59,922 nucleotides of DNA from an uncultured Myxococcales bacterium. GTDB lineage: Bacteria > Myxococcota_A > UBA9042 > DTJE01. Made by a program: the position numbers and the translations under genes. The stretch is from the NCBI GenBank assembly GCA_903847405.1, contig CAINDP010000065.1, positions 1 to 59,922 of the forward strand, written 5' to 3'. Below the pieces are notes generated by a model, which worked only from the letters and a program-made list of their open reading frames with translations, searched no databases and was not told the DNA's origin. Shown here in pieces: positions 7,989 through 27,975 of the stretch (within the stretch, counting starts at the first letter, position 1; each line of letters opens with the position of its first letter).

Positions 7989-8049
7989 GGGTCCCTGCCC
8001 GAAGTTGGCCGAAAGGATAGCAGATTCCGAAGTCCGAACGATCCGGTCC

Positions 8050-8089
8050 TTGACGGGCGGTCTTTTCGATAATAAATAAGCATGTGCTT
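8050..8089 (+). promoter_or_regulatory. Probable promoter and TetR operator of the tetR operon
   Basis: TTGACG at 8050-8055 and TAAATA at 8073-8078 are separated by 17 bases and resemble a sigma-70 promoter. Immediately over the end of the -10 box lies the inverted repeat AAGCATGTGCTT (8078-8089), two 5-base arms around a TG spacer. This arrangement, 47 bases upstream of a TetR gene, suggests autorepression. The site is read by eye only. Confidence 0.45.
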
Positions 8090-8136
8090 GCAAAAGAACG
8101 AGCCTCGGGGAGGCCGTCGGTTCCGGAGGGGCAACG

Positions 8137-8739
8137 ATGGGGCGACACAAGCAGGTCAGCGACGAAGCCGTGCTGCTGGCGGCGCGGGAGGTCTTCACCG
8201 AGGCGGGGTTCGGCGCCTCGACGCGCACGATCGCCCGTCGGGCCGGGATTTCGGAAGCCGTGCTGTACCAGCGCCACAAGACCAAGATCGACCTGTTCTT
8301 CGCGGCCATGATCCCGCCACCCCTGGAACTGGCGGTGCAGCGCGCCCCGGGTCGGCGTCGTGCCGTCCTGCCGGAACTGGAGGCGCTGGCCATCGAGATC
8401 CTGGGGTACTTCCGGGGCGCCATGCCCGTGCTGCTGCAACTGGTCACCCATCCCCGGTTCCAGTTGTCGGACCTGGTGGACGGCGAACGCCGGATGCCCC
8501 TGCATCGCCTGGGGGACGCCGTGATCGCGTGCATCGAGGGGCACCGGGACGAGGGGAGGATCACCGCGGATTCCCAGCGGGTCCAGGCGGCGGCGTTGAC
8601 GCTGCTGTCGTCGCTGCACAGCCTGGCGCTGTTCGAGCGCATCGGCGTCCACGGCGGGGCGTTCCCGGATCGGGCGGTGAAGAACATCGTGGGATTGATC
8701 GTCGCGGGCCTGACCGCGACCGGGGGGAACGCACCATGA
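8137..8739 (+). CDS. TetR-family transcriptional regulator
   Basis: 200 residues with the canonical TetR layout. The N-terminal helix-turn-helix is at about residues 10-57, with AAREVFTEAGFGASTRTIA and GISEAVLYQRHKTKIDLF matching the family's helices 1-3; a helical ligand-binding domain follows. The ATG is preceded by GGAGGGGCAACG. Its stop overlaps the next ATG by four bases (ATGA), so it is the first gene of a three-gene operon with a membrane methyltransferase and an EamA transporter, whose expression it probably controls. The ligand is unknown; the linkage suggests a lipophilic or exported metabolite. Confidence 0.93.
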   Translation: MGRHKQVSDEAVLLAAREVFTEAGFGASTRTIARRAGISEAVLYQRHKTKIDLFFAAMIPPPLELAVQRAPGRRRAVLPELEALAIEILGYFRGAMPVLLQLVTHPRFQLSDLVDGERRMPLHRLGDAVIACIEGHRDEGRITADSQRVQAAALTLLSSLHSLALFERIGVHGGAFPDRAVKNIVGLIVAGLTATGGNAP

Positions 8740-9716
8740 AGAAGGGGACGCGGGCGCACAGCCACGGGTGGCTGGTGGGAATCGCGGGGCTGGTCGTCGG
8801 AATCGCCTTGATGGTGTGGTTCCCGAAACTGGAGGCCGTCGCCGGGGTGCTGCTGCTGGTCGCCCTGTTCCACCTGGTGGGCATCGCGATCGTGTTCGGG
8901 TCCGTGTACTCGTTTGCGCCCGAACGGTTCGGCCGCCTCATGGAACGCTTCCGCCGGCGGGCCCCGGACGCCGCCGGCTTCGATTTCGGCTGGTCCTGGG
9001 GCGCGATCAACGGACCGTGGCTGGCGGCGGTGGCGTTCCTGACCATCGCCTTCGGCCTGCAGTTGGAGTGGCCCGGACTGTGGCCGGCGTGGTTCCTGGT
9101 GGCGCTCCTCGGGGTGAACAGCTTCATCGGCGGGCTGCTGCTGCGCAGTTCGAAAACCGAGGGCCTCGCCTCGCTGCCCCTGGTCGACCTGCTCCGGTCG
9201 GACGAGGACCTGGTTCTGGACGCGGGATGTGGCGGCGGGCGGACCACCCTGGAACTGTCGAAGGTGCTGGGTGGTGGCAGCGTCGTCGCGTTCGACCGGT
9301 TCGACGCCTACTACATCGACGGCGGAGGCCGCACGCTGCTGGAGCGGAACCTGCGCATCGCGGGCCTCGGCGCGCGGGTGCAGATCCAGCAGGGCGATCT
9401 GACGACGCTGCCGTTCGCCGACGCCCACTTCGACAGCGCGGTCAGCGCCCACGTCATCGACCACCTCAAGCAGCACAAGAAGGCCGCGCTGACCGAAATC
9501 CGTCGCGTGCTGAAGCCCGGCGGCCGCTTCCTGATGGTCGTCTGGGTCCCGGGCTGGGCCACGTTCTCCCTGGCGAACGTCTTCTGCTTTCTGCTGACGT
9601 CGAAGGCGGGCTGGCGGCGGATCACCCGCGACGTCGGGTTCACGATCCGGGACGAGGGAACCTTCAACGGCATGTGGTTCGCCGTTCTGGAGCGGCCTGA
9701 AGGGGACGGCGCATGA
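8736..9716 (+). CDS. Membrane-anchored class I SAM-dependent methyltransferase
   Basis: 326 residues. The first about 140 hold four hydrophobic segments (about 12-28, 33-55, 93-110, 117-137), and the C-terminal half is a class I methyltransferase: motif I VLDAGCGGG at about 160-168, an acidic residue at the end of the second strand (VVAFDRFD), GDLTTLPFADAHFD as motif II/III, and EIRRVLKPGGRFLMVVW typical of the UbiE/COQ5-like fold. It overlaps both neighbours by ATGA. The four-helix anchor before the catalytic domain suggests a membrane-embedded or hydrophobic substrate. The substrate is unknown. Confidence 0.88.
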   Translation: MKKGTRAHSHGWLVGIAGLVVGIALMVWFPKLEAVAGVLLLVALFHLVGIAIVFGSVYSFAPERFGRLMERFRRRAPDAAGFDFGWSWGAINGPWLAAVAFLTIAFGLQLEWPGLWPAWFLVALLGVNSFIGGLLLRSSKTEGLASLPLVDLLRSDEDLVLDAGCGGGRTTLELSKVLGGGSVVAFDRFDAYYIDGGGRTLLERNLRIAGLGARVQIQQGDLTTLPFADAHFDSAVSAHVIDHLKQHKKAALTEIRRVLKPGGRFLMVVWVPGWATFSLANVFCFLLTSKAGWRRITRDVGFTIRDEGTFNGMWFAVLERPEGDGA

Positions 9717-10744
9717 CGCGGTTGACGACCCGGCCCGTGGCGTGGTGCATCGTTTCGGCCGTGCTGTTCGGGGCCGCGACTCCTGCCGCGAAACTGCTGC
9801 TGGGACCGCTGTCGCCGGTGCTGCTGGCCGGCCTGCTGTACCTGGGCGCGGCGCTGGCGGTGCTGCCGGCGGCCCTTCGGAACCGCCCGGCACGCCTGGA
9901 CCGCAGGAACGTCCTGCGCCTGTCCGGCGCCGTGGTGGCCGGGGGAGTCCTGGCGCCGGTGCTGCTGATGCTGGGCCTGTCGAAGGCCCCCGCGTCCTCG
10001 GTGGCGCTGTGGCTGAATTTCGAACCGGTCGCGACGGCCGTGCTGGCCTGGGCGATCTTCCACGAGCATGTCGGCCGGTGGACCTGGGCCGGTGCCGCCC
10101 TGGTCCTGGTCGCAGGGACAACCCTCGCGGCGCCCTCGGGGTTCCAGGCAGGCGTTCCCGCGCTGCTGGTCGCGGCGGCGTGCTTCTGCTGGGCCATCGA
10201 CAACAACCTGACCGCGACGATCGACGGCTTCACGCCGGCGCAGTCCACGCTGGCGAAGGGGCTGGTCGCCGGGGCCGTCAACATCGCCCTGGGCCTGCTG
10301 CTGGGGGATGGCGGCCTGCCGCTGGGGGCGGTTGGCGGCGCCCTGGCCGTCGGCGCGGTCGGGTACGGGCTGTCCCTGGTCCTCTACGTCGGCGGTGCCC
10401 AGCAGTTGGGGGCGACCCGATCGCAGATGCTGTTCGCCACGGCCCCGTTCTTCGGCGCGGTGGTGGCGTGGACGGTCCTGGGGGAGCCCCTGACGGGATG
10501 GCAGGTTGCCGGCGGCCTGGGGATGCTGGCGGCGCTGCTGCTGGCGGCCGCCGATCGGCACGGGCATCGGCATCGCCACGATCCGGTGGCCCACGTCCAC
10601 GCCCATCGGCACGACGATGGCCACCACGAACACGGGCATGCCGACGTGCCGCCCGGCGCCTGGCACACCCACGAGCACCTGCACGCGCCCGTGATCCACG
10701 AGCATCCGCACCAGCCGGATTTGCACCACCGGCATGAGCATTGA
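9713..10744 (+). CDS. EamA/DMT-family transporter with His-rich C-terminal tail
   Basis: 343 residues. The first about 280 form a ten-helix drug/metabolite transporter with two EamA halves; ATPAAKLLLGPLSPVLLAGL and the WLNFEPVATAVLAW segment are typical. The last about 60 residues are an extremely His-rich hydrophilic tail (repeats of HxH and HxHRH), likely cytoplasmic and able to bind divalent metals such as Ni, Co or Zn. A similar tail is known on a subset of EamA proteins. It is the third gene of the tetR operon, overlapping the methyltransferase by four bases. Export of a metabolite or metal complex is inferred; the direction and cargo cannot be read. Confidence 0.88.
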   Translation: MTRLTTRPVAWCIVSAVLFGAATPAAKLLLGPLSPVLLAGLLYLGAALAVLPAALRNRPARLDRRNVLRLSGAVVAGGVLAPVLLMLGLSKAPASSVALWLNFEPVATAVLAWAIFHEHVGRWTWAGAALVLVAGTTLAAPSGFQAGVPALLVAAACFCWAIDNNLTATIDGFTPAQSTLAKGLVAGAVNIALGLLLGDGGLPLGAVGGALAVGAVGYGLSLVLYVGGAQQLGATRSQMLFATAPFFGAVVAWTVLGEPLTGWQVAGGLGMLAALLLAAADRHGHRHRHDPVAHVHAHRHDDGHHEHGHADVPPGAWHTHEHLHAPVIHEHPHQPDLHHRHEH

Positions 10745-10845
10745 ACAGCCCCGTCTACACCCCCACGCTTGACCGGGCCGGAGCCGCTGGCCATACTTCG
10801 CGCCGCGGCGTGCAAGGCGCTTTCATTCAAATCATCGGTGGCAAT

Positions 10846-12555
10846 ATGTTGAAGATCGGTTGTGCGCGGACGGACATCACGGTGTTTGAGCCCGGCATGG
10901 GTCTGCTGGGCTGGGCATACCGCCACAACGTGGTGACCGGCGTGGCGATGCCGCTGTGCGCCCGGGCCTTCGTGCTGGAGCAGCAGGACGGCGGCCGGGT
11001 GGCCATCGTCGTCGCCGAGGTCGGCTTCATCACCCAGGGCCTGCGACAGGCGGTCGTCGACGAACTGGAACGGCGGCCCGCGCTGGGCCTGTCCGACGAG
11101 CGGATCATGCTGACCGCCACGCACACCCACAGCGGTCCCTCGGGCTTTTCGCACGTCATGTTCTACAGCGCCACCAGCCCCGGGTACTCTGCGAAGGTGT
11201 TCGGGGGACTGGTCCAGGGAATCGTTTCGGCCGTCGAGCAGGCCGTCACGGCGCTGGTGCCCGGGCGGGTCGGTCTGAAGTCCGGACGGATCCCGCTGTC
11301 CGAGCCCGTGGCGTTCAACCGGGCCATCCGTTCGTACGAGTCCAATCACGACGTGGTCGAGCGGACCGGGATCGACCACTCGCCCGCCGCCATCGATCGC
11401 GAAATGACCGTCCTGCGTTTCGACGACGCGTCCGGCAGGCCCCTGGGCATGATTTCCTGGTTCGGCGTCCACGGCACCAGCGTCCACCGCGAAAACCTGC
11501 TGCTGCATCCCGACAACAAGGGCATGGCCGCCGCCTGGTTCGAGCGCTATGCCCGCGAGGGGCTGGGCGTACCCGGGTTCGTCGCCGCCTTCGCCCAGTC
11601 GCCCTGCGGCGACGTGACGCCGAACCGCAACTTCTCGCTGCGCCGCGGGCTGACGATCGGCGAGCACAAGGATGACTTCGAATCGGCGCGCCGGAACGGC
11701 GAAATCCAGGCACGGTTCGCCCGGCAACTGTTCGATTCGGTCCTGCCCGGCGACGCCCTCGCACCCCGCCTGGACGCGGCGCTGCTGACCGCCGACTTCG
11801 CGAACCTCGCGGTGGATCCCGCGTTTGCCGACGGCCGGCCCGGGCGCCACACGTCCCCGGCGGTGGTGGGCCTGCGCATGATCTTCGGCACCAGCGAAGG
11901 CCCTGGGCTGCCCTACGTGTTCGCTCCGCTGGTCGAGTCGGCGTCGCGGGCCAGCGCGCGGTTGGTGGCACTGGCCAAGGCGCTCGGCGACGATTCGCAG
12001 GCTCCGAAGCTGCCCCTGTTCGAGGCCGGCCTGGGGACGAAGGGCAAGGCGCTGGGCTTCTACCCGATGAACCGCCCCTTCCCGATCCCCGATGATGCCG
12101 ACCCGACCGTGGGCTTCCTGAACCGCAGCCTCGCCAGCGGCGCCGTGGACGAGCGCCCGTGGGTTCCGCAGGTACTGCCGGCGCAGATCATCGTCATCGG
12201 CGGGTTCGCCATCGCCGCGACCGCCGGCGAGTTGACCACCGTCGCAGGTCGCCGGTTGCGTGCCGGGTTGCTGGACCGCCTGAAGGGCCGCGGCGTGCGC
12301 CACATCGTGTCGATGCCCTACAGCAACACGTACTCCGGGTACATCACCACCCCGGAAGAGTACCAGTGCCAGGGCTACGAGGGGGGGCACACGCTGTTCG
12401 GCCGCTGGACCCTGGGGGGGCACCGCACGCTGTTCGACCGGGTGGCTGCAAGGCTGCTGGTCGAACCCGCCGATCGCGGCAGCGACCGGGGCCCCGTTCC
12501 GCCCCGTGCCGATCCCGCCTTGCTGCGGCGCTGGGCCTACGTCCCGCGGCCCTGA
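10846..12555 (+). CDS. Neutral/alkaline ceramidase-like amidase, no signal peptide
   Basis: 569 residues of the neutral ceramidase N-terminal domain family (PF04734). Zinc-site motifs are present: THTHSGP (His93, His95), WFGVHGTSVH (His209) followed by HPDNKG, AGELTTVAGRRL (the family's Glu) and the Tyr-rich YSNTYSGYITTPEEY. The segment that carries the family's nucleophilic Ser in GDVSPN reads CGDVTPN here, placing Thr258 at that position. The ATG at 10846 has only a weak GGTGG upstream, but it coincides with the conserved family start; upstream codons are not conserved-looking. It lacks both a signal peptide and the C-terminal immunoglobulin-like domain of secreted ceramidases, so it may act in the cytoplasm on a small amide or N-acyl lipid. 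Ceramidase activity is not proven by sequence. Confidence 0.82.
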   Translation: MLKIGCARTDITVFEPGMGLLGWAYRHNVVTGVAMPLCARAFVLEQQDGGRVAIVVAEVGFITQGLRQAVVDELERRPALGLSDERIMLTATHTHSGPSGFSHVMFYSATSPGYSAKVFGGLVQGIVSAVEQAVTALVPGRVGLKSGRIPLSEPVAFNRAIRSYESNHDVVERTGIDHSPAAIDREMTVLRFDDASGRPLGMISWFGVHGTSVHRENLLLHPDNKGMAAAWFERYAREGLGVPGFVAAFAQSPCGDVTPNRNFSLRRGLTIGEHKDDFESARRNGEIQARFARQLFDSVLPGDALAPRLDAALLTADFANLAVDPAFADGRPGRHTSPAVVGLRMIFGTSEGPGLPYVFAPLVESASRASARLVALAKALGDDSQAPKLPLFEAGLGTKGKALGFYPMNRPFPIPDDADPTVGFLNRSLASGAVDERPWVPQVLPAQIIVIGGFAIAATAGELTTVAGRRLRAGLLDRLKGRGVRHIVSMPYSNTYSGYITTPEEYQCQGYEGGHTLFGRWTLGGHRTLFDRVAARLLVEPADRGSDRGPVPPRADPALLRRWAYVPRP

Positions 12556-14594: not shown

Positions 14595-16697
14595 CTAGAA
14601 CGGCGTGGGGTAGTTCGGGATCACGACGATCGCGCCTGTGGCGGCGTTTTCGTGCGGGACGAAGCCGCCCCCTGCTTCGGGCCCACAGACCTCGCCCACG
14701 TCCCACATGTCGCCCGTGTGCAGGCCGACGATGCTGGTGACTTCGTGGATCAGCACGTTGGAGTCCCAGATCTGGACGCTGGGGTAGGAACTGCCGAACC
14801 CGTGACCGTCGAAGTAGTGGACGCCGATGCGGTAGCAGAGTTTCGGGTCGGGCACACCCAGCGTCACGATTTCCGGGCCGCCGCCGTCGGTGTCGTCCCG
14901 GTCCAGGGTGGGTTCGTAGGGTACGCCCTGTTCATGAACGTCCCATGCTGTCGGGTGGGGGTTCATCCAGTAGGTGTCGTACACCTCGTCAAAGTATCCG
15001 TAGGGGCCGCCGGTCAGCGGATCGACGGGCGTCCCGCTGGCCTTCGGGTGCACGAAGTGGAGGTCCATGTCCGAGCCGCAGTCCTTCCCGACCTGGCACG
15101 AGTCCGTTTGATCCGGGTCGGCCGGAGTGTTCCACGTCACCACGATCATCCACCCGGTCGGGGCCTCGGCGCGGAGGGTATGCTGGCACGTCGCGACGCG
15201 GCCTCCCAGGTTTTCCACCGCCAGGCGGAACATGTGTTCCCCGGCCATGAGGGGCTTGAACGACACGTCCGGGCTCCCGACATCCGGGGCGAACGCCTGG
15301 TCGGCAATCACGGGTTGCTGGACCGACCACGTCCATCTCGCTAGGGCGCCGCCGACGGTCGCGTCGTAGCTCTGATCCGCCAGGCTCAGTTCCGTCAGCA
15401 CCGGGACGGCACCGCCCTCCGCGATCGGCGTACCGTTTGACAGGATCAGGAAGTCGCACACCGGATCCCTCAATTCCCCGCCCCGCCCGATCAGTTCAAT
15501 GCGCAGCGGCGAGGAGGGTGCATCGCTGTCCACCAGAAGGATGTTCGAGGCCCGGCTTTCGGGCAGGGCGGGAACGAAGGACACCAACACCGTCCAGGAC
15601 GCGTCGGGGGCCAGTACCAGCGGGTTTTCGGCGGACACCTCGCGGAATGCTTCCACGGCGAACCGGGTGTCCGTGGGATCCTCCAGGCGCAGACCGGTGA
15701 TCCGGGTCGGGGTGTCCAGGGCGCAACTCCGGATTTCCGCCTCGACAGCCCCCGCTTTGCCCAGGGGCACGAATCCGATTTCGATCGGGGTGGGGAGCAC
15801 CACGATGCAGGGGCCGTCGCGATTCGCGACCAGGGTGACGACCAGTGCGTCCGGGTCCGTCGAGTGGAAGGTCAGCCGGGCGATGGCGACGTCCGCGCTG
15901 CCGGCCGTGAAGCGAACCGGGATCGGCAGCGAACCGCCGGCCGGGACGGTCACCGTGCCGGCGCAGATCATCGACGTGTCGCCCGGGTTCGGCCCCACGG
16001 CGATGGATTCGGTCGCGCTGCCCTGCAGCCGTGCGCAGGGCCAGGTGAATCCGAACCCGGTGGCGCCGGTCGAGTCGAACGCGACCCGGTCCACGACCAC
16101 GTCGGTTCCGCCTTCGTTCCGGAGGTGCAGCATGGTTTCGACCCTGGCCCCCTGGGCGACCGGGCCCATGTCCACTTCCGTCGGCCCCTGCAGGTCGGCC
16201 GCGGTGACCGTCGGCGCGGGCCGGCAGCCGGCCTGGCCGCCCACCCGGATCGACAGGCGGACCGTTCCCCGGCCCAGGCCCTGGAAGGTTGTCAGGAGGA
16301 CGGTGTGCCGGCCGTCGGTCTTGGCCACGGCGTCCAGGATCGACAGGCGCCCGGGGCCGGAGTCGTCGTCGGTGGCGATCGGCAGCCCGCCTTCCCCCGG
16401 GCCGAACAGGTGCACCACGGTGTCCAGGGTGTCGTCGCCGGCCGTTTCCAGCCGGACCGCTTCGCCGTTCTGCAGGTCGAAGGCGAAGGCGAAGCGCTGC
16501 CCGGGCTCGGTGAAATCGACGGCGGCCTCGCCGTTCGTGCAGAAGTCGACGGGGCTGACCTCCACCGCAGCCAGTTCCTGGGCCGTGACCGTCGGGGGCG
16601 CTTCCGGCGTCTTGGCGTCCAGGTCCAGGTGGTTGCCCGGACAGCCGAGGATCAGCACCGTCGTCGACACCAGCAGCCGGATCGCGTTGCGTCCCAT
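14595..16697 (-). CDS. Multidomain lipoprotein (PPC-like, ASH-like, C-terminal YfaP-like)
   Basis: 700 residues; signal peptide with lipobox LILGC (Cys19) and a strong ribosome site (GGAGGG) before ATG. Residues about 50-150 resemble a PPC beta domain (GQRFAFAFDLQNG, DTLDTVVHLFGP). Two ASH-like choice-of-anchor beta domains follow (about 165-290 and 290-400), then an Ig/PKD-like domain to about 515. The C-terminal part (WMIVVTWNTPADPDQTD, GSDMDLHFVHP) resembles a DUF2135/YfaP-like module seen in delta-proteobacterial surface proteins. It lies 53 bases downstream of the anti-sigma gene in the same direction, probably the last gene of that operon and perhaps its regulated or sensing surface component. 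Domain borders are approximate. Confidence 0.78.
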   Translation of the reverse strand: MGRNAIRLLVSTTVLILGCPGNHLDLDAKTPEAPPTVTAQELAAVEVSPVDFCTNGEAAVDFTEPGQRFAFAFDLQNGEAVRLETAGDDTLDTVVHLFGPGEGGLPIATDDDSGPGRLSILDAVAKTDGRHTVLLTTFQGLGRGTVRLSIRVGGQAGCRPAPTVTAADLQGPTEVDMGPVAQGARVETMLHLRNEGGTDVVVDRVAFDSTGATGFGFTWPCARLQGSATESIAVGPNPGDTSMICAGTVTVPAGGSLPIPVRFTAGSADVAIARLTFHSTDPDALVVTLVANRDGPCIVVLPTPIEIGFVPLGKAGAVEAEIRSCALDTPTRITGLRLEDPTDTRFAVEAFREVSAENPLVLAPDASWTVLVSFVPALPESRASNILLVDSDAPSSPLRIELIGRGGELRDPVCDFLILSNGTPIAEGGAVPVLTELSLADQSYDATVGGALARWTWSVQQPVIADQAFAPDVGSPDVSFKPLMAGEHMFRLAVENLGGRVATCQHTLRAEAPTGWMIVVTWNTPADPDQTDSCQVGKDCGSDMDLHFVHPKASGTPVDPLTGGPYGYFDEVYDTYWMNPHPTAWDVHEQGVPYEPTLDRDDTDGGGPEIVTLGVPDPKLCYRIGVHYFDGHGFGSSYPSVQIWDSNVLIHEVTSIVGLHTGDMWDVGEVCGPEAGGGFVPHENAATGAIVVIPNYPTPF

Positions 16698-16750
16698 GGG
16701 TCCCTCCAAGTGAATCGTCCGGCCATGGGTCGCCGGACGGGGGGGCCGCG

Positions 16751-18421
16751 TTACCTGGCGGATCCCAGTGCCTCGACGACCCGGGCCACCTCGGCGGCCC
16801 GGAGGCCGGATGGGAACCGGTCCGCGTGCTGCGCCGCCAGGGCGCGTACGTCCGAGGCACGTCCCTGGTCCAGGCGGACGCGCATCAAGCCGACCAGGGC
16901 GGCTTCGGCCAGCGCCGGAGGGCCGGAATGCGTCCGAGCCGCGAACCAGGCCGCGGCACCGTCCAGGTCGCCGGTGGCGCGCAGGGCCAGTCCGATGGCG
17001 GCCAGCATGGGCACCGCCTCGGGCGACTGCGGAGCCTCGTCCAGCAGTCGCGTCCGGAGGGCCAGGGCCCGGTCCGTGTGGCCCGTCGCCTCCTGGATCG
17101 CCGCCAGCCGTTCCAGGGCCCGCCCGGCCAGGCGGCCGTGGGGGTACTGGAGTAGGCAGGCCTCCCAGGCGAGGGCGGCGTCGGCGGTTCGACCCCGCTC
17201 CTCCAGCGCGCGCGCCAGGTCGGCGTGGAGGCCCTCCGGGGCCGCGCCGGGCCACGATGCAATCGCTTCCTCCCAGGCCGCCCGTGCCTCGTCCGGTCGT
17301 CCCGAGGCCCGGTGCAGATCGCCCAGCAGCGCCAGGAGGCGCGGGCGGTGATCCGGGTAGGTTGCCAGTGCGCGGGACAGGGTTGCGATGGCCTCGTGCT
17401 CGCCGCCGACCGTCGCCAGGGCCCGGACGCGCGCCATCAGGTCCGCCACCGGGCCGGGGACGGGCGCAGGCACCGGCGAGGATGGCCAGGGCGGCGCATG
17501 GGACCCGGAGGTTCGGGAGCCTGCACGAACGCGCGTTTCCGCCGTCGCGGGACGAATGTCGATCGGCGGGCACGACGACTCGCGGCAGGGGAGGGCCGGT
17601 GCCGGATCGATGTCCGCGTCGCGGGTCGGACCCCCGGGACCCAGGCGTGCCACGCCGCCGGCCGGCAGTCGTGCGACCTCCTCCCCGGAGGGCGATGCGA
17701 CGGACACGGTTCCCTCGAAAACGTGCACTTCGGTCCGTTCGCCTGGACGGTGATCGACGACGAACCGGGTGCCGACGACCCGCGCGTGGGCCAGGTCGGT
17801 GCGGACCTCGAACCCCTCGCCGGGTCCCCGGGGGCGCACCGTCGCCTCGACGCTGCCCGATTCCAGGAAGACGATCGTTCGCAGGCCCCATGCCTGGATC
17901 CGCAGGTGCGTGCCGGGGGCCAACACCAGGGTTCCGACGTCCGGATCGGTCAGCCGGGCTTCGCCGTCGGCGGCCTCGACGCCGTCCCCCGGTTGCACGG
18001 CGATTGCAGCCAAGCCTGGATCCCGATCCGGGCCTCCGGCCGTGACACGACCGGCACCCGACAACAGCGGCCCGGGACGTTCCCCGGGGTCCGCCGAATC
18101 GGGACCCGTCGCGACCATGCGGATTGCCGGCACGGCAAGCACGACCAGGCAGGCCGCCGCGGGAATGGCCCAGGCCAGGCGAGGAATGCGTCGGGGCGCG
18201 CGGCGTTCCAACCGTGCCGACAGGCGGGCGGCCAGGACGTCGGGCTCCGGGTCCCGGAGCCCGGGTCGCGGGGGCAAGGCGCGCATCGTGTCCGCGGCGC
18301 CACGAAGGAGTTCCGCCCGCCGGCCGCACTCCGGGCATTCCTCCAGATGGCGGCGTACCGCTGCGGAATCCGGGGCCGGGCCCGCCGCCTCCAGCCAGAT
18401 CCGAACGGCCGTGCACCTCAT
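16751..18421 (-). CDS. Anti-sigma factor: zinc finger, TM helix, FecR domain and TPRs
   Basis: 556 residues. The N-terminal cytoplasmic ZAS zinc finger is HX3CX2C (His25, Cys29, Cys32 in HLEECPEC). A single membrane helix lies at about 82-101. A periplasmic FecR-like beta domain (about 125-255; VGTLVLAPGTHLRIQ, ARVVGTRFVVDH) is followed by a Pro-rich stretch and about five TPR-like helical repeats to the C terminus (for example ALLGDLHRASGRPDEARAAW). The layout implies that a periplasmic cue, relayed through FecR and TPR, releases the sigma factor. Its ATG overlaps the sigma stop by four bases and has GGAGGT three bases upstream, so the two are translationally coupled. Confidence 0.92.
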   Translation of the reverse strand: MRCTAVRIWLEAAGPAPDSAAVRRHLEECPECGRRAELLRGAADTMRALPPRPGLRDPEPDVLAARLSARLERRAPRRIPRLAWAIPAAACLVVLAVPAIRMVATGPDSADPGERPGPLLSGAGRVTAGGPDRDPGLAAIAVQPGDGVEAADGEARLTDPDVGTLVLAPGTHLRIQAWGLRTIVFLESGSVEATVRPRGPGEGFEVRTDLAHARVVGTRFVVDHRPGERTEVHVFEGTVSVASPSGEEVARLPAGGVARLGPGGPTRDADIDPAPALPCRESSCPPIDIRPATAETRVRAGSRTSGSHAPPWPSSPVPAPVPGPVADLMARVRALATVGGEHEAIATLSRALATYPDHRPRLLALLGDLHRASGRPDEARAAWEEAIASWPGAAPEGLHADLARALEERGRTADAALAWEACLLQYPHGRLAGRALERLAAIQEATGHTDRALALRTRLLDEAPQSPEAVPMLAAIGLALRATGDLDGAAAWFAARTHSGPPALAEAALVGLMRVRLDQGRASDVRALAAQHADRFPSGLRAAEVARVVEALGSAR

Positions 18422-19032
18422 GGGACCTCCGTTGTTCCCGCGGAACGGGCCAGGTACGCCCCGCTCATCGGGATCTGCGGGCCGTCAGCCAGTTCCAGGG
18501 TCGCCAGAAGGGCCCGCCGGGCCCGGAACAGGCGCACCCGGACCGTCACGACCGGCACGTCCAGGGCCGCCGCAGCCTCCGCTGGCGACAGCCCCTCGAC
18601 GTCGCACATCATCCAGGCCGCCCGAGTCTTCGTTCCCAGGCCTTCCAGGGCGCCCCAGACCCGCCGCAGCCGCTCGAGCGCAGCGGCCTGGTCGAGGGTG
18701 TCCGGGCGCATCTCCGGTTCGGCGGCCTTCCATGCCCCGAAGGCCTCGTGGCGCCGGCGCCGGCGGGACTCCGTCCGGAGGTGGTCGCGGGTGACGTGGA
18801 TCGCGATGCCGTAAAGCCAGGTGGTGAACCGTGAGTCGCCCCGGAAGCGCTCCAGGCCGGCGGCGACCTCCACGAAGATCTCCTGCACCAGGTCGTCGGA
18901 GTCGGCCGTCGGACCCGCGATGCAGCACACGAACCGCCGGATCGTCGGGCCGCACGCCCGGTACAGTTCGACCCATGCGCCGCGGTCCCCGTCCCTGCAC
19001 CGCCGGACGATGTCGTGCAGCGGGTCGTTCAT
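18418..19032 (-). CDS. ECF-type RNA polymerase sigma factor
   Basis: 204 residues with regions sigma2 and sigma4 only, as in ECF (group 4) sigma factors. Region 2 contains DDLVQEIFVEVAAGL and FTTWLYGIAIHVTRDHLR; region 4 has the helix-turn-helix in EGLSPAEAAAALDVPVVTVRVR. It overlaps the upstream barrel protein gene and the downstream anti-sigma gene by ATGA on both sides. It is presumably held inactive by the adjacent zinc-finger anti-sigma factor; target promoters cannot be read here. Confidence 0.93.
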   Translation of the reverse strand: MNDPLHDIVRRCRDGDRGAWVELYRACGPTIRRFVCCIAGPTADSDDLVQEIFVEVAAGLERFRGDSRFTTWLYGIAIHVTRDHLRTESRRRRRHEAFGAWKAAEPEMRPDTLDQAAALERLRRVWGALEGLGTKTRAAWMMCDVEGLSPAEAAAALDVPVVTVRVRLFRARRALLATLELADGPQIPMSGAYLARSAGTTEVP

Positions 19033-20078
19033 CGACCCTCCGGGTGCGCGGGGCGTTGGGCATCGGGCGGGAACACCGCGCCCACCCGCAGCGCCAGGCC
19101 CGCGGACCAGGCCGGGGCCTCCCAGGCCGAGCGGCCGTTCCAGGCGAAGGACGGACCGCCGATGTAGCCGCGGAAGATGCCTGCCAGGGCCACCCTGAGG
19201 GGTCCCCAGGCCGCCAGGGCCCCTTCGATCGACCCTTCCAGCATGCCGGCCACCGAGTCCCGGGACATTCGTCCGAAGCGGGTCGCCGGCTGGAGTTCGA
19301 AGTGCCGCCATTCGATGCCTGCGGCCAGGCCCGCCAGCAGTCGCACCCGGCCCAGGCCGACTCCGCCGCGGATCGCCGCCACGATCGGCACGGCCTGGGC
19401 CCGTCGCGTTCCGGCAGGCGTGGCCGCATTTCGGGGGGGCTCCCAACCGATCCGGAGCCCCACTTCCAGGCGCTCGCGGAACAGCGACGCGCCGGCCTCG
19501 ATGTCCACGCCGGCCCCGTGCACATCCGGTCCCGATGCCCAGGCCCAGACGCCACTCAGGCGGAAGTAGCCCGCCGGCGTCGCGGCACCTGTCGGAAGGG
19601 ACGCGGCGCCGGGTGCCAGGCTCGCGACCTCCGCCTCGACCATGGGAACCGGCGTCCTCGGCTCTCCCAGGTTGGACGCGACGATCCGGGCGACCTCGCC
19701 GGCCCGGTCCAGCGGGTCCACCGGCGACAGGTCGACGCGGATTCCTTCCCCGGGCCCCGCAGGCGGCAGCGGTCCTGCGCCGGGCCGGAATTCGACCATT
19801 GCAGGGGGAAGCAGGACCAGGATCAGGCCCGCGGTCGGAGGGCAGTCCGACGCATCCGGCACTTCCACGGTCTCCCAGGCTGCACCGCGCTTTCGCTGTT
19901 CCAGCAGCAGCGTCGGTCCCAGATCCTCCGGCGCCAGGCCCGGAACCACGGCCAGGCGCACCACGCAAAGCGGCCGTGGCGCGGCTTCGACCCGGTTGGC
20001 CACGCTGCACAGCGCGACCGTGAACGCCAGCAATGCCGCGGCGGTCCCGGTCCGGTCGTGCGTCGAACGGCGGTCCAT
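19029..20078 (-). CDS. Exported protein, probable outer-membrane barrel, first gene of ECF operon
   Basis: 349 residues. An uncleaved-looking N terminus with several Arg is followed by a hydrophobic stretch ending VANRVEAAP, a likely signal peptidase I site. Residues about 40-140 form a small domain with no match I recognise. From about 165 the sequence alternates polar and hydrophobic residues with many Gly and aromatic strand ends (GVDIEAGASLFRERLEVGLRIGW, RVRLLAGLAAGIEWRHFEL), as in an 8-10 strand outer-membrane barrel. Start ATG 20078 has CGGAG five bases upstream and is preferred over 20102. It overlaps the sigma gene by four bases. It may be the outer-membrane sensor or the product controlled by the sigma factor. 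Confidence 0.7.
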   Translation of the reverse strand: MDRRSTHDRTGTAAALLAFTVALCSVANRVEAAPRPLCVVRLAVVPGLAPEDLGPTLLLEQRKRGAAWETVEVPDASDCPPTAGLILVLLPPAMVEFRPGAGPLPPAGPGEGIRVDLSPVDPLDRAGEVARIVASNLGEPRTPVPMVEAEVASLAPGAASLPTGAATPAGYFRLSGVWAWASGPDVHGAGVDIEAGASLFRERLEVGLRIGWEPPRNAATPAGTRRAQAVPIVAAIRGGVGLGRVRLLAGLAAGIEWRHFELQPATRFGRMSRDSVAGMLEGSIEGALAAWGPLRVALAGIFRGYIGGPSFAWNGRSAWEAPAWSAGLALRVGAVFPPDAQRPAHPEGR

Positions 20079-20220: not shown

Positions 20221-23200
20221 CTATTTCGGCGGCAGGTGCGTCCACGGCGACAGGGTGCCGTCCGGGGCCATGACAGATGCCGCCGAGGGGCCGGTCCACT
20301 GGTCCGCGGTGATCAGCAGGGCGCGGATGCCCCGGGCCTCCAGTTCGCCGACCTGGGCGGGGGTGACCGCGGGGTCAAGGCGCGGCTCGAACAGGAAATC
20401 CTCGGAAAAGTTGTGGTGGCCCGGCCGGTACGAACGGGCCCAACTGGACGACAGGTCCAGCGGTTCCGTGGTCAGGCCCGTCAGCGTGGTGGCGTCCCAG
20501 GCGACCAGCGGGGCCGTGTACCCGGCCGTGGGTCCCGTCGGGGACGGCGGCCACCACCATGACACGTTCGCCGAAACGCCGTCGCCCAGGTCCCAGGTCC
20601 GTTCCTGCCTCGGGTAGGCGCCGGTCACGTCGTCCTTCGAGGTGCAGGCGGCCAGGCGCGCCGATTCGGTGCTCACCGTCGTCACCAGGGGATCCCAGGA
20701 ATTCCACGCCGGGTGCGGTGTGGCGTAGTCGGCCTGCAGCGTCAGGTACAGATCGTTCCACCACAGGAAGGGGCCCGACGACTCGAAGATCTGCATGGGC
20801 ATCTGCGTGACCAGGGACAGCGTGCGCTGTGCCGCGCCCTGGCCCCGCGTGAACCCGTCCGTGACGACCTCGGACTGTTTGCCGTGGACGAACCCGGGGA
20901 AGGTCGCCGGGTCGCCCTGGAACGTCGTCAGGACGCCTTCCTCCATGCCTTCGAACGCCACGTCGGCCAGGAAGCTGTCCGTCCCCAGGGCGTCGCTCCA
21001 CAGGCCCCGCGTGCGCACGGTCCATTCCGACTTCAGACGGTGGTTCGCCAGCACATCGCCGTACTCGCCCTGGTTCACGCACACCCGGTACGTCCCGGGC
21101 AGGATCACCTGGCGCGTCGGCGGCGCGAACGTGGGTTGCGGCAACTGGCGCACCTGCTTCACCACCAGGTGCCCGGGACGCATCTTCTTGTACTCGAAGT
21201 CCAGCACGTAGGCGGACTGCCCGGTTTCGACCCCGTACGCGTCGGTCGCCTGGAACAGCAGGGCCGCCAGGTCCCGGTAGTCCTGCTCCCAGTCCATGAC
21301 CGTGCCGCCCAGGGGGACCAGGCTGCTGCGCGTCATCACCGCAAGGTACAGGGTCCCGAAGCCCGAATACCCGTCCACGACCTCGGGAATCGCGCTGCCG
21401 TCGGGGTTCGTCACGGAAACCGCGCCGGCCTGCGTCACGAAGTCCACCTGGTTCGAGCCGTCCGACGAGTGGGTCACCACGGCCACGCCGTTCGCCAGTT
21501 CGTCGGCGTCGGGGTACGAGTGGTGCACCAGGATCGCCATCCCTACGTCCGCTTCGTTCACGCCGCGACGCAGCCGTTCCAGGAAGGCGTTGTCGCCCCA
21601 GAACGACGCCAGGACGGTCCGGACGGCATCGGCGACGGGCTTTTCGTTCTTCGGCCCCGGCGGGCAGGCGCTGGGGCCGGCCGGGTCGGCGTCGGTGTCG
21701 TCCAGCAGGCAGCCGCTGGCGCTTTCGTACAGGCCGGCGCCCACGAACGTCTCGACGTCCTCGACGTTGGTGGACGAGCGGAAGCGCAGGCGCAGGCCCG
21801 GATCGAAGAAGGACTGCTGCTGCAGGGCGGCCAGGAGGTCGGTACGCAGGGCGTCGGGCAGCGGCGCCGCGAGGATCTGTCCCCGCACCCAGGCTAGGTC
21901 GGTCGCGACCCGGGCCATGTCCGGCGGCCAGGCCAGGCCTGCCAGGCGTTCGTCGATGGCCTGGCGCAGCGTCTTGCCCCCCTGGACGGCCTGGGCCAGG
22001 AACGCGTCGAACAGGTCGAACGACAGCGCGATGGCGGGATCGGTGTGGTCGGGGATCGCGCGGCGGAGGATGCCGTAGTGGGAGGCCTTGCCGCCGTACG
22101 ACTTCACGTCCCCGTCGCCCAGTTCGTCGGTCACGCGCCACAGGCGGCCGGGGGACAGGCGCGCCGGCACGTCGGCTACGGGCACCTGCTTCATGGCGAC
22201 GACCTCGTCACGCATCTGGGCCGACAGGTCCGTGGCGTCGGCCAACCGGACCGCGCAACCCCACAGCCCCTCGACCCGCAGGGCCACCGGGCGTCCCGCC
22301 AGAGCCCTGGCCGCTGCACGGTCGGCGTCGGTGGCCAGGTAGGCGAAGGGGATGCGGAAGGCGTCGGCCAGGATCGCCACGTGGGAGTTCGGGGTGGAGG
22401 GTTGCGTGGACAGGATGCCCGCCACGTAGGGCACCTCGGCCGGAACGCCGTCGGTCAGCAGGATGTCGGTCGGTCCCAGGCGCCCGTCCGTGTAGGCCTG
22501 CCGGATGTCGGTGCCCGCCAGTTCCACCAGGCGGCCCATGGCCCAGCCGTTCACATAGCAGGAACTGGACTCGGCCCAGCGCGCAACGGACGAAACGTCG
22601 ACGCCCCGCTCGTGCAGCCACGGGGACCACCGGGCGGCCGAGTCCTGCTGCTCGAACGTCGGGAAGTAGTAGGTCGTCAGGGGTCCGTCGGCGTCGATGG
22701 CGGCCCGGACCAGATCCACCACGGTGCGCACCATTTCGGGATGGTAGGCGTCCTGCCGCACCAGTTGGATGCCCGCCTCGCGGATGCCGTCCCGCGGGGG
22801 GGTGATCAGCGCGCCCAGGATCACCTCCTGGCCGGCGGCGTTCAGGGACACCGCGTCGAACTCCGGGCGCGTCATGTCCAGGAAGGGATCCAGGCGCTGC
22901 GTGGCGAATTCGTAGTGGAACTTGAAGGTTGCGCCGTTCTGGAAGTAGACCTTCGTGGGATCCCGGACCAGCACCGCGAACTTCACGAACCCCGGCAGCG
23001 GCCGGTAGTTGCCGTCGTAGTCGCGCACCAGGAACGGGTCGTCGGGGAAGGCGACGCGGTTCTTCCAGTCGGGCGAGGGCGTGATGGATACGGGGCCGGT
23101 GGGCAGCGGCCACGTGAAGGGGCCGGGGTCGCCCGGATCCACGTCGCCGCCCGGATCCGCGGGCGTGTCCTCGGGGACGTCCGGGGTGTCGGACGGTACG

Positions 23201-23313
23201 TCCAGCGCATCGGACGGCAGTTCCGCCGAGGGTCCGCCCGTGCCGCTGCCGCAGGCGATGGCCACGAGCAGGAACGTTGTCATGCCGAGCCCGGCAACCG
23301 TCTTGCGTCGCAT
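20221..23313 (-). CDS. Lipoprotein with glucan-water-dikinase-like phosphotransfer module
   Basis: 1030 residues. Signal peptide with lipobox AIAC (Cys21) and a short Asp/Pro linker (about 30-65). Residues about 280-330 look like a swivelling phosphohistidine domain (ILSTQPSTPNSHVAILADAFRIPFAYL region, His311 in NSHVAILA). From about 400 comes a PPDK/PEP-synthase-type ATP-grasp domain: GGKASHYGIL (407-416), IALSFDLFDAFL, and RSSTNVEDVETFVGAGLYES (512-531). The order phosphohistidine then ATP-grasp, and the wording of the RSS motif, match glucan or phosphoglucan water dikinases rather than PEP synthase. The C-terminal about 300 residues are unassigned. Start ATG has GGAGGT upstream. The lipoprotein signal puts it outside the cytoplasm, odd for an ATP-using enzyme; the module may be repurposed. 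Confidence 0.72.
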   Translation of the reverse strand: MRRKTVAGLGMTTFLLVAIACGSGTGGPSAELPSDALDVPSDTPDVPEDTPADPGGDVDPGDPGPFTWPLPTGPVSITPSPDWKNRVAFPDDPFLVRDYDGNYRPLPGFVKFAVLVRDPTKVYFQNGATFKFHYEFATQRLDPFLDMTRPEFDAVSLNAAGQEVILGALITPPRDGIREAGIQLVRQDAYHPEMVRTVVDLVRAAIDADGPLTTYYFPTFEQQDSAARWSPWLHERGVDVSSVARWAESSSCYVNGWAMGRLVELAGTDIRQAYTDGRLGPTDILLTDGVPAEVPYVAGILSTQPSTPNSHVAILADAFRIPFAYLATDADRAAARALAGRPVALRVEGLWGCAVRLADATDLSAQMRDEVVAMKQVPVADVPARLSPGRLWRVTDELGDGDVKSYGGKASHYGILRRAIPDHTDPAIALSFDLFDAFLAQAVQGGKTLRQAIDERLAGLAWPPDMARVATDLAWVRGQILAAPLPDALRTDLLAALQQQSFFDPGLRLRFRSSTNVEDVETFVGAGLYESASGCLLDDTDADPAGPSACPPGPKNEKPVADAVRTVLASFWGDNAFLERLRRGVNEADVGMAILVHHSYPDADELANGVAVVTHSSDGSNQVDFVTQAGAVSVTNPDGSAIPEVVDGYSGFGTLYLAVMTRSSLVPLGGTVMDWEQDYRDLAALLFQATDAYGVETGQSAYVLDFEYKKMRPGHLVVKQVRQLPQPTFAPPTRQVILPGTYRVCVNQGEYGDVLANHRLKSEWTVRTRGLWSDALGTDSFLADVAFEGMEEGVLTTFQGDPATFPGFVHGKQSEVVTDGFTRGQGAAQRTLSLVTQMPMQIFESSGPFLWWNDLYLTLQADYATPHPAWNSWDPLVTTVSTESARLAACTSKDDVTGAYPRQERTWDLGDGVSANVSWWWPPSPTGPTAGYTAPLVAWDATTLTGLTTEPLDLSSSWARSYRPGHHNFSEDFLFEPRLDPAVTPAQVGELEARGIRALLITADQWTGPSAASVMAPDGTLSPWTHLPPK

Positions 23314-23346
23314 CCTGCACCTCCAGCCCGAACGGGGGTTCGCACG

Positions 23347-24876
23347 TCAACGGACCCGGACCAGCACTTCGGGATCCCCGCGCGACTCGAACCGCTGCCC
23401 CGCCAGCGTGCCGATGCCGTAGAACGGGTGCCAGCGGGAGCCTGCCTTCACGATGACGCCCGGCGGGTGGTCCTGCAAGCGTTGCGGGTCGTCCTTGTAC
23501 CGGTCGTAGGGCGGCAGGGGCGCAAGGCTGACCAGCGCCCGGTGGAAGTCCGGGTTGTTGAACCAGAGGTGAAGGGCGTCGCGCCGGAAGATGGGGTGGT
23601 CGGGCGGGGACGCGATCACCGTGTCGCCGGGCGAGGTCAGGGCCAGGACTTGCTGCATCCGGGCGACCTGGGACTGGTCATCGGGCAGGGACGCCACCGT
23701 CAGCGCGTGGCGGACCCCGAAGGTGGCGACCGTCGCGACCAGCAGCGCGACGGCCACGGCCTGCCGGCGGGGCGTCGTGGACAACCGCTCCCCGAACGCG
23801 GCCAGGGCGTCCGCGCCCAGGACCGCCATCAGGGTGATCGCGGGGACCAGATACTGGTAGTTCGGCAGGCGGGTCGCCGCGGTCCCGCCCAGCACGACGG
23901 CGACGACGGCCAGCAGGATCGCGCGATCCAGCGCCGGCGCCATCGCGAAGCGGACCAGCGCCAGGGCCAGGCCCGCCCAGGCCAGGGTGTCGCGCTGGAA
24001 CGATGCCCGCAGGACCTCGCCCATCGCGAACCCGGTGCCGTCGGATCCCAGCAGGTAGGGGCCCTGCAGCCGGACGACCCACAGCCAGAACCCGTCCAGG
24101 ATCCCGGCGCCCTGCAGCACCAGGGCAAGGGCGGCCAGGGGGATGGTGAACCCGACCGCCAGGGCGAGGGCCGCGAGGAGGGACTGCCGCCGGACGTTCC
24201 GGGTGAGGACGGCCTGCAGCACGATGCCTGCGAACAGGGTCGCGCCCACGACGGCGGCCTTCAGCAGGACCGCGGCGGCCGCTCCGATGGCCAGGCCCGC
24301 GAGCAGCGGCCGGACGGGGGAAAATGGGGACAGACACCATTTCCGGGAAAATGGTGTCTGTCCCCATTTTCCCCGTCCCCATTTTCCCGGCAGTCCCAGG
24401 ACCAGCCCCAGCAGGACCAGGGTCGTCATGGGCACGTCGGGCCGGATCTGGACGGAATACACGGACCAGTAGGTCGACACGATCAGCAGCAGCGGCGCCA
24501 GGAACATCGCGCGGGGCCCCCCGATGCGGCGGGCCAGCAGGGCTGCCAGGACCAGGGACAGCAGCGAGCACGCCGCCATGGCGACCCGGCCCGCCTGCAC
24601 CGCGTCCCCGGGGGAATCGGTCGCGGGCAGCAGGGGCGCCAGGGCGTACCACAGGACCGGGTTGTGGTTTTCGCCGAAGTCGCGGTACGGCAGGTCGCCC
24701 TGGGAAACCAGCCAGGCCGCGTGCAGGTGCTCCACCTCGTCGTGGTCCAGCGCCAGGTCCGGGACGCGGGCCCACAGCACCAGCAGCATCGCGCCGGCGA
24801 ACGCCAGCGCGGCCGGTCCCGCCATGGACCGGAGCCGGTCCGCGAGGGGCATGCGTCTGTCGGGGGAGGGCGGCAT
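23347..24876 (-). CDS. GT39/ArnT-like integral membrane glycosyltransferase with in-frame repeat insert
   Basis: 509 residues, about ten membrane helices, of the dolichyl/polyprenyl-phosphate-sugar glycosyltransferase group (PMT_2 type). The first periplasmic loop has the family's acidic motif, LALDHDEVEHLHAAW (Asp44, Asp46, Glu47). ATG 24876 with GAGGAA upstream is preferred over a TTG at 24909. Residues about 163-187 (reading GKWGRGKWGQTPF and RKWCLSPFSP) are encoded by a palindromic repeat and lie in a loop between two membrane segments; the frame is kept. Downstream of the dikinase-like lipoprotein's 5' end by 33 bases, it is transcribed in the same direction. It may glycosylate exported polysaccharide or protein; the acceptor is unknown. 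Confidence 0.8.
   Translation of the reverse strand: MPPSPDRRMPLADRLRSMAGPAALAFAGAMLLVLWARVPDLALDHDEVEHLHAAWLVSQGDLPYRDFGENHNPVLWYALAPLLPATDSPGDAVQAGRVAMAACSLLSLVLAALLARRIGGPRAMFLAPLLLIVSTYWSVYSVQIRPDVPMTTLVLLGLVLGLPGKWGRGKWGQTPFSRKWCLSPFSPVRPLLAGLAIGAAAAVLLKAAVVGATLFAGIVLQAVLTRNVRRQSLLAALALAVGFTIPLAALALVLQGAGILDGFWLWVVRLQGPYLLGSDGTGFAMGEVLRASFQRDTLAWAGLALALVRFAMAPALDRAILLAVVAVVLGGTAATRLPNYQYLVPAITLMAVLGADALAAFGERLSTTPRRQAVAVALLVATVATFGVRHALTVASLPDDQSQVARMQQVLALTSPGDTVIASPPDHPIFRRDALHLWFNNPDFHRALVSLAPLPPYDRYKDDPQRLQDHPPGVIVKAGSRWHPFYGIGTLAGQRFESRGDPEVLVRVR
24317..24390 (+). repeat. REP-like palindromic element inside a CDS
   Basis: Perfect 26-base inverted repeat (24317-24342 and 24349-24374) around a six-base loop, followed by a partial direct copy of its right arm (GTCCCCATTTTCC, from 24375). 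The core GGTGTCTGTCCCCATTTTCC is shared exactly with 36390-36409. It inserts about 75 bases, divisible by three, into the glycosyltransferase gene. This resembles the mobile palindromes moved by RAYT-type transposases; no RAYT gene is in the window. Confidence 0.85.
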
Positions 24877-25014
24877 TTCGCTTCCTCGGCGGTCGGGTTC
24901 CTGGCGCAAGCCTACCCCCGCGGCGCCCCTGGAAGGAAGACGAATGACGCGGGGCCATCATGGACAACGCGGGGCGGCCGTGCAGAATGGGCCTCGACCT
25001 GCACGGGATACGCC

Positions 25015-26088: not shown

Positions 26089-27975
26089 GTGGCGCGGTCG
26101 AAGGTTTTCCGGACGATGGGGCCGGTGCTGGCGATCCTCCTGATCGCCTGCGGATCCGGTGCGGGCAGCGACATCGGCCTGCGGGACCAGGCCGTGGATG
26201 CCCTGGACGCGGCCGACATCACGGAGGATCCGGATGTCCCGGCCGACGCCGTGGCCCTTCCCGACGTTCCGGAACCACCGGCCTGCGACCTGGCGACGAC
26301 GGGCCTCCGAATCGAGGTTTCCCGCGACAAGCCGCTGTTCCTGTTCAACCTGTATGGCGACGCATCGGAGGTGGCGGCCCTGAGCGCCCTGCTGCCCGCC
26401 GACGTGCGGTCCCGGTTCGCGATCCACTACGTTCCCGCCGAGCCCTACGACTTTTCGGAAGCATGGCAGGCGGCGGTCGAGGCGATCGCCACCGCCGCCG
26501 ACGATGCGGGAATGCCCCTCTTCCTGCAGGTCGAGCACGGCAACACCCGGAACGCGGCGACCGGCGAGTACTGGCACGGGATGTTCGACAGGCACCCCTC
26601 GCTGACGGGCCTGGTCTTTGCCGAAATCTGCTGGACCGGCCTGTGGTTCGACGGCCTGGACGACGACTACATCGCGCGGATGATCGCCGACCTGGACGTG
26701 GTGGCGGCCCACGGCGGCTACCTCCTCTGGCAGGACATGGCCACCGACAACGTCGTCGAGGTGCCCCACGTCTTCCTGAAGGCCGGCGCGGACCCGGGGT
26801 TGATGGCCGCCTTCCGGGCGCACGGCCGCAACGTCATCGTGCAGGACAAGCACAACGGTTCGGGCAAGCGCTTCGTGAACGCGGCGGCGCCGATGGGCCT
26901 GTGGGCGTCCTGCGTCATCGGGAACTGGGGTGTCCACAGCGAGGACTGGCTGTGGTGGGAGGCCGGCTACACGCACCTGTTCCAGCCGTCGTCGGGGGTC
27001 AGCCGCAGCGGCCCCGCGTGGCAGTCGGTGATGTCCTTCCCGGACGCCCTGTTCGGCATCGACTGGATGGCGGGCCTGGCCGGGGGCGCCACCGTCTTCG
27101 GCGTCGAAATCCCCGCGAAACTGGTCTCGCCGGACGGTCAGCGCCTGTGCCCGGCCTTCCAGAAAGTGCTGCTGCCCCTGATCCGCCGGATGCTGGCAGA
27201 ACCGCTGGCGCCTTCCCGGGACCAGGCGCGGTCGCGCATGAAGGTCGCCTACCAGCCCCTGGAGGCGCCTCTGCAGGACCTGATGCAGGACGGCATCTTC
27301 CAGGGCCTCTACGGACCGGAGGAGGCGAGCCTGTGGGAGTGGCTGCCCTCCACCGGGCGCTACTACTACCTTCCGATCCTGCCGGTGCTGTCGACGCCCG
27401 GCGAGCGGGCCCTTTTCGACGAGGTGATCGATTCGGCGCGCTGGACGGCGGACCTGTCGGACCTTGCGGTGCGGCGGGCCTTCTTCGACGCGCGGTACCC
27501 GTCCACGGGCGACGGGGATGCCTGGTTCGTGGCCTTCCCCGGGCGGCTGTTAGCCTTCAATCCCAGGGAAAACAAGGATTTGGATGCAAACTTCACAACT
27601 GCAATCGACGTCCCCGGTCTGTCCCTTTCGGCCACGCTCCCGGCCCACACGTCCCTGCTGGCGTTGTCGCGCGACGACGGTCTGGAGGTGGACCTGTCGA
27701 ACTACCGCATCGATTCCGAGGCCGACGTCTGGACGGATGCGTCCATCAACGACGACCCCATGAAGTACATCCGCGAGCGGTACTCCGTGGACCCGACCGA
27801 CGACGCCCGGCGCACGACGGTGGTCCGGGTGGAGGGGCTGGCGGCGGCTGCGACGCTGGAGGTGTCCGGGGACCCGCGGGCGGTGGCCAAGGACGTCTTT
27901 TCGGAAGGTCGCCACACCGTGACGGTGGACCACAACGGCCCCGTGACCCTGCGTTTCCGCTGGCCGGTCCCCTGA
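26089..27975 (+). CDS. Lipoprotein with a GH98-like catalytic-domain resemblance
   Basis: 628 residues. GTG start with GGGGGAATC upstream gives a positively charged signal peptide ending IAC (Cys21). A short linker (about 30-65) precedes a domain starting LFLFNLYGD and containing FLQVEHGNT, FAEICWTGLWF, IVQDKHNGSG, VIGNWGVHSEDWLWWEAGY. The pattern of aromatic and acidic residues resembles the GH98 endo-beta-galactosidase family; I cannot place the catalytic acid and base firmly. The C-terminal about 150 residues form a beta-rich accessory region (SLSATLPAHTSLLAL). Glycoside hydrolase outside the cell is inference; it could be another surface carbohydrate-active protein. It follows the esterase by 84 bases on the same strand. 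Confidence 0.62.
   Translation: MARSKVFRTMGPVLAILLIACGSGAGSDIGLRDQAVDALDAADITEDPDVPADAVALPDVPEPPACDLATTGLRIEVSRDKPLFLFNLYGDASEVAALSALLPADVRSRFAIHYVPAEPYDFSEAWQAAVEAIATAADDAGMPLFLQVEHGNTRNAATGEYWHGMFDRHPSLTGLVFAEICWTGLWFDGLDDDYIARMIADLDVVAAHGGYLLWQDMATDNVVEVPHVFLKAGADPGLMAAFRAHGRNVIVQDKHNGSGKRFVNAAAPMGLWASCVIGNWGVHSEDWLWWEAGYTHLFQPSSGVSRSGPAWQSVMSFPDALFGIDWMAGLAGGATVFGVEIPAKLVSPDGQRLCPAFQKVLLPLIRRMLAEPLAPSRDQARSRMKVAYQPLEAPLQDLMQDGIFQGLYGPEEASLWEWLPSTGRYYYLPILPVLSTPGERALFDEVIDSARWTADLSDLAVRRAFFDARYPSTGDGDAWFVAFPGRLLAFNPRENKDLDANFTTAIDVPGLSLSATLPAHTSLLALSRDDGLEVDLSNYRIDSEADVWTDASINDDPMKYIRERYSVDPTDDARRTTVVRVEGLAAAATLEVSGDPRAVAKDVFSEGRHTVTVDHNGPVTLRFRWPVP

Follow-up and report, generated by a model that had tools for sequence, protein, structure and literature searches.

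A large family of predicted lipid-anchored proteins with a dikinase-type fold in Myxococcota

Known dikinases that combine an ATP-grasp domain with a phosphohistidine domain, such as pyruvate phosphate dikinase (PPDK), work in the cytosol or in plastids. In rifampin phosphotransferase (RPH), HpeHI and PEP synthase (PEPS), phosphate passes from ATP to a His residue, is carried by a swivelling domain and is then delivered to the acceptor (PMC4844700, PMC12167813). RPH and the small-molecule dikinases HpeHI and PpsAB have a PPDK-type ATP-grasp, a phosphohistidine domain of the swivel type and, for the acceptor, a domain that is unrelated to the pyruvate barrel. In RPH, Lys22, Arg117, Thr136 and Glu297 are involved in ATP/Mg binding, with Arg117 and Thr136 positioning ATP, and His825 is the phosphate carrier; replacement of Lys22 by Ala abolishes activity (PMC4844700).

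Here, we analysed a stretch of 59,922 nucleotides from an uncultured Myxococcales bacterium (hereafter the window), in which a gene for a predicted exported lipoprotein with a dikinase fold (P0001) occupies positions 20221..23313. It is an ORF of 1030 aa from ATG on the minus strand, a strand that the initial annotation had not given; the plus-strand frame across the same interval is broken by internal stops. The GC content at the three codon positions (0.69/0.50/0.92) shows the signature typical of this GC-rich genome, and a Shine-Dalgarno sequence, GGAGG (23320..23324, minus strand), is located six bases 5' of the ATG.

The initial annotation had described the product as a lipoprotein with a lipobox at Cys21, and this was confirmed. 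The signal peptide MRRKTVAGLGMTTFLLVAIAC (23251..23313, minus strand) ends with the lipobox LLVAIAC, in which Cys21 (AIAC21; codon 23251-23253) falls in a family column with Cys in 85/86 sequences. The residue at +2 is Gly, and the protein thus lacks the Asp at this position that acts as the E. coli-type inner-membrane retention signal (PMC3222651). An Asp/Pro-rich linker follows the lipobox. With respect to how common the signal is in Myxococcota, a strict lipobox filter was passed by 60 of the 97 family members, and in the remaining parts of the same 97 proteins, used as a control, one lipobox-like site was found per 66,437 aa. Members that failed the filter were mostly fragments cut before the N-terminus, and approximately 10 had near-miss lipoboxes when inspected by eye; almost all members with an intact N-terminus are lipoproteins by their sequence signal. 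The features of a bacterial lipoprotein (signal peptide, lipobox and +1 Cys) are therefore present in the window protein and conserved in the family, and it is strongly supported at the sequence level that this protein carries an export/lipidation signal.

Four domains could be delineated downstream of the signal, all encoded on the minus strand: an N-terminal domain (~residues 90-245; 22579..23046), a phosphohistidine swivel domain (~residues 250-365; 22219..22566; His311 codon 22381-22383), a PPDK_N-type ATP-grasp domain (~residues 398-727; 21133..22122) containing K409, R512, S531, D705, E707, Q720 and R722, and a C-terminal beta-rich domain (~residues 735-1030; 20224..21111) that is present in the clade of close orthologs. 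The order previously proposed for the center of the protein, a phosphohistidine segment followed by a PPDK-type ATP-grasp, was borne out by Pfam PPDK_N, PDB profile alignment and Foldseek. In the profile search, PPDK_N matched residues 405-627 (E 3.8e-12, 46.6 bits vs gathering score 27) as well as all 30 of 30 aligned relatives, whereas the PEP-utilizers His domain (residues 293-331, E 2.3e-3) stayed under its gathering score and GWD1_pHisD was unmatched. A profile built from 30 relatives matched PEP synthase structures in PDB with E-values down to 2e-30, the alignments spanning the ATP-grasp, the His segment and the MDIEW...LQARP end. The last ATP-grasp motifs, LDFEYKK (D705, E707) and VKQVR (Q720, R722), lie outside the Pfam match and were aligned by HMMER with MDIEW..YILQARPE of PEP synthase.

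Structure prediction was consistent with these results. The AlphaFold model of residues 62-1030, based on 30 aligned sequences, had a mean pLDDT of 85.7 and contained the PPDK-type fold; the best Foldseek matches were RPH 5hv1 (7e-14), the RPH ATP-binding domain 5hv6 (TM 0.72 on target), PEPS 2ols and PPDK. The C-terminal 300 residues were modelled as beta-rich with moderate confidence (79.7), and a fold search with this domain alone gave no confident match. Absence of the ATP-grasp fold and loss of the ATP-binding residues, two outcomes that would speak against the initial annotation, were both looked for and neither occurred.

The motifs named by the initial annotation were found as described, namely GGKASHYG with K409 (407-414), RSSTNVED with R512 (512-519) and GAGLYES (525-531), and His311 lies in SHVAI (within TPNSHVAI). 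Inspection of the ATP ligands and His311 showed that all of them are present and near-invariant among the 97 members: His311 is kept in 95/96, K409 in 96/97, R512 in 96/96, S531 in 95/96, E707 in 90/94, and both Q720 and R722 in 92/93, while E518 and D519 occur in all covering sequences. K409, R512, E707, Q720 and R722 are the equivalents of PPDK K22, the Arg of the RSS motif, E323, Q335 and R337, and the spacing between R512 and S531 (19 residues) equals that between Arg117 and Thr136 of RPH. It is thus well supported that the predicted active site of the window protein is intact. The exception is one member of its own clade (L057:6883-10026, G021:C7), which lacks the Lys, the His, the first Ser of RSS, S531 and the Gln/Arg pair. 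It is the single member without the His, and its other active-site losses coincide with this one, so that by its residues it is a natural pseudoenzyme. This joint loss provides indirect evidence that the other members are under selection for catalysis, and they look catalytic.

The window protein is not an isolated case. Seven more proteins with this architecture, missed by the initial annotation, are encoded in the same genome; two contig-end matches (C74 and C216) share an overlapping segment and, if taken as one split gene, leave six full or partial loci besides the window gene. Two additional genes in this genome (on C191 and C137) have stronger PPDK_N scores, were not found by the window protein and are probably canonical enzymes. 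Close orthologs with the C-terminal domain were identified in seven other genomes and form a clade with the window protein (support 1.0), and several paralogs possess an extra lamin-tail domain. Of the 284 Myxococcota genomes sampled, 203 gave a match to a family profile at E<=0.001, although numerous weaker matches probably represent canonical PEPS/PPDK; among the matches listed for these 284 genomes, well over 100 places scored below 1e-100. A scan of genome contigs detected only one relative, which was fragmentary, and tblastn of plasmid records with the window protein as query gave no match. We found no Pfam or NCBIfam model dedicated to the family and no NCBIfam model that fits at its cut-off, as well as no study of it in the open literature searched (secreted PEP/pyruvate-binding proteins and myxobacterial lipoproteins).

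The N-terminal domain, for which no Pfam match was obtained, is common to the whole family. Two of its residues hardly vary among the Myxococcota members (K111 in 92/94, H133 in 93/94), and both have equivalents in relatives encoded on two Streptomyces linear plasmids (WP_142270066.1 and WP_331760287.1, annotated as 'PEP/pyruvate-binding domain-containing protein'). These relatives were detected by tblastn with a family member as query, of which they cover 82% and 73%. They have the N-terminal domain (including the K and H), the His domain and the ATP-grasp in common with the window protein, but differ from it in lacking a signal peptide and in their neighbors, a gene resembling an ATP-grasp ligase on one side and an MFS transporter on the other. 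Because the N-terminal domain is conserved between cytosolic and exported branches, we infer that it is the strongest candidate for holding the acceptor. As a separate observation, the order ATP-grasp ligase-like gene, cytosolic dikinase-like gene and MFS transporter is a conserved cassette in both plasmids (L134:4508-9335 and L135:4514-9194; NZ_CP108236.1 and NZ_CP109451.1) and is adjoined by a PAS regulator, an arrangement reminiscent of a small cluster for a natural product or for detoxification.

The gene neighborhood was also examined. Upstream, 33 bp before the dikinase gene, lies a gene for a membrane protein resembling a glycosyltransferase (23347..24909, minus strand), whose match to PMT_2 narrowly misses the cut-off; the two genes possibly form an operon here. 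As a clue to function this arrangement was rejected, since no homolog of that gene occurs at the ortholog loci examined. At each of these loci the neighbors differ (S46 peptidase, aldehyde dehydrogenase, aminotransferase, CotH), and no conserved neighbor gene that would name a substrate was found among them. In one case, a CotH-kinase lipoprotein with a lamin-tail domain (L054:3955-7869) adjoins a dikinase ortholog (7888-11091), and the two families co-occur at the genome/class level (Fisher p 4.8e-6, with kinship ignored). This linkage was set aside as evidence, as it is close in few genomes only and about what chance might give by a rough estimate.

Several other features of the window were recorded. 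Within the glycosyltransferase-like ORF, a palindromic dispersed repeat with AATGGTGTCTGTCCCCATTTTC arms is located in frame at 24303-24387; about 150 of its half-sites were counted in the genome and none in a reversed control, and it resembles a REP-type element. A glycoside hydrolase lipoprotein of the GH98 family (26089-27975, plus strand), in which the two GH98 Pfam domains both score above cut-off, is encoded a few kb away from the dikinase gene. On the downstream side of the dikinase gene, an ECF sigma factor, a zinc-finger/FecR/TPR protein and a lipoprotein are encoded in a row (14595-20010, minus strand).

Considering these data together, we propose, with about an even chance of being right, that the window protein is a putative extracytoplasmic, lipid-anchored phosphotransferase of the dikinase type, which would transfer the beta-phosphate of ATP via His311 to an acceptor. 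According to its sequence signal, the protein would be exported by Sec and lipidated at Cys21. By comparison with PPDK and RPH, the ATP-grasp would then bind Mg-ATP through K409, R512, S531, E707, Q720 and R722, and His311 of the swivel domain would accept the beta-phosphate with release of AMP and Pi, as in the family mechanism. The swivel domain would turn to a second site and hand the phosphate over to an acceptor. The N-terminal domain (K111/H133) would most likely hold this acceptor, perhaps with help from the beta domain at the C-terminus. The acceptor may be a glycan of the surface or matrix, but also a protein or small molecule, and ATP would, speculatively, derive from vesicles or from lysed prey or siblings. 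Of this scheme, the sequences show the export signal, the predicted fold and the conserved residues, and we infer catalysis, acceptor and ATP source, the catalytic steps by analogy with RPH, HpeHI and PEPS. Extended to the phylum, the proposal would be that the PPDK superfamily has an extracytoplasmic branch in Myxococcota, evolved there as a large family of ATP-dependent dikinases that are anchored at the surface, carry a new acceptor domain and use ATP of lysed neighbors to phosphorylate molecules of the surface, the matrix or prey; this wider version is more tentative and falls somewhat short of an even chance. Multi-copy, phylum-wide lipoproteins with an intact site imply that phosphorylation outside the cytoplasm is driven by ATP or else by some unknown donor, and either would be unexpected. 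The family thus poses the question of which molecule is phosphorylated and from where ATP is obtained outside the cell.

ATP is scarce outside the cytoplasm, which counts against an extracytoplasmic dikinase, as does the absence of a conserved neighbor gene at the loci examined, and the observed residue conservation would also suit an ATP sensor or a hydrolase. One alternative is that the protein scavenges extracellular ATP: water would finally accept the phosphate (ATP to AMP and 2 Pi), and the products would feed the uptake of nucleotide and phosphate from lysed cells. An intact active site on a lipoprotein, in a phylum that contains predators, would be expected in that case, bacterial ATP release is documented in the literature, and the missing conserved substrate gene would be accounted for. 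However, the conserved N-terminal domain, in which K111 and H133 hardly vary, and the many divergent paralogs per genome suggest diverse acceptors instead of one hydrolase, and we consider this alternative unlikely, if still the most serious one. Somewhat less likely again is an ATP/AMP sensor, receptor or structural surface protein, whose fold would have been preserved because it binds a ligand and switches conformation, and not for transfer. Such a role agrees with the lipid-anchored setting and with the pseudoenzyme mentioned above, in which the fold has persisted after loss of the catalytic residues, but His311, which is known for its role in transferring phosphate, is retained nearly throughout. 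The same near-invariance of catalytic residues disfavors the suggestion of the initial annotation that the fold was repurposed for non-catalytic carbohydrate binding.

It is also conceivable that the protein is an exported alpha-glucan, water dikinase (GWD) acting on glucans outside the cell. The likeness to GWD noted in the initial annotation holds for the position of the His domain (293-331) ahead of the ATP-grasp (405-727), which is the GWD order, and for the GWD-like wording of RSS-N-ED and GAGLYES. A specific link is not supported: GWD1_pHisD (PF22973) had no match in the window protein and its best match in the genome (E 0.08) was below cut-off, while no CBM45, CBM20 or other CBM was matched by Pfam at E<=1 in the window protein. 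GWD membership was rejected on these grounds. The fold matches RPH, PEPS and PPDK, a comparison in which no solved GWD structure was available (PMC12892837), and we regard an exported GWD as improbable. More improbable still is that the protein is a cytosolic enzyme, with a misplaced start or a falsely predicted signal and a hydrophobic N-terminus that remains unused. Although the cytosol supplies ATP and the Streptomyces relatives are free of a signal, the lipobox and an Asp/Pro/Thr-rich linker recur in divergent members, and the Shine-Dalgarno sequence and ATG are placed exactly at the signal peptide.

In comparison with known systems, the window protein shows the tested features of the dikinase superfamily (PPDK/PEPS/RPH) as predicted from its sequence, namely PPDK_N, the ATP ligands and a catalytic His on a swivel domain. 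It resembles GWD and phosphoglucan, water dikinase in domain order and motif wording, and differs from them by its lipoprotein signal and in having neither a GWD-specific phosphohistidine domain at cut-off nor a CBM. With PEPS/PPDK it shares homologous ATP-grasp and His domains (PDB profile to 2e-30), but the domain order is reversed and a lipoprotein signal is present. PEPS/PPDK proper was rejected, as the PEP/pyruvate TIM barrel (PEP-utilizers_C) had no Pfam match at E<=1 and the C-terminal domain is modelled as beta-rich. With RPH, HpeHI and PpsAB it has in common the PPDK-type ATP-grasp, the swivel phosphohistidine domain and a putative acceptor domain other than the pyruvate barrel. RPH has the order ATP-grasp, RIF domain and C-terminal His, with no export described, whereas the order here is N-terminal domain, His, ATP-grasp and an extra C-terminal domain in addition to the lipoprotein signal. 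No relation was detected between the N-terminal domain and the RIF domain, and assignment to RPH by the NCBIfam model RIF_Ptrans_rph was rejected (11.5 bits vs cut-off 999). CotH kinases are similar in being a kinase family found as LTD-bearing lipoproteins in the same phylum, but they belong to a different Pfam family and are unrelated in fold and chemistry. Thus, the proteins described here constitute a large, unstudied, phylum-wide and multi-copy family of predicted lipoproteins in Myxococcota, which is distinguished from the known systems by its predicted export and lipid anchor, its domain order with an undescribed N-terminal domain, and its expansion.
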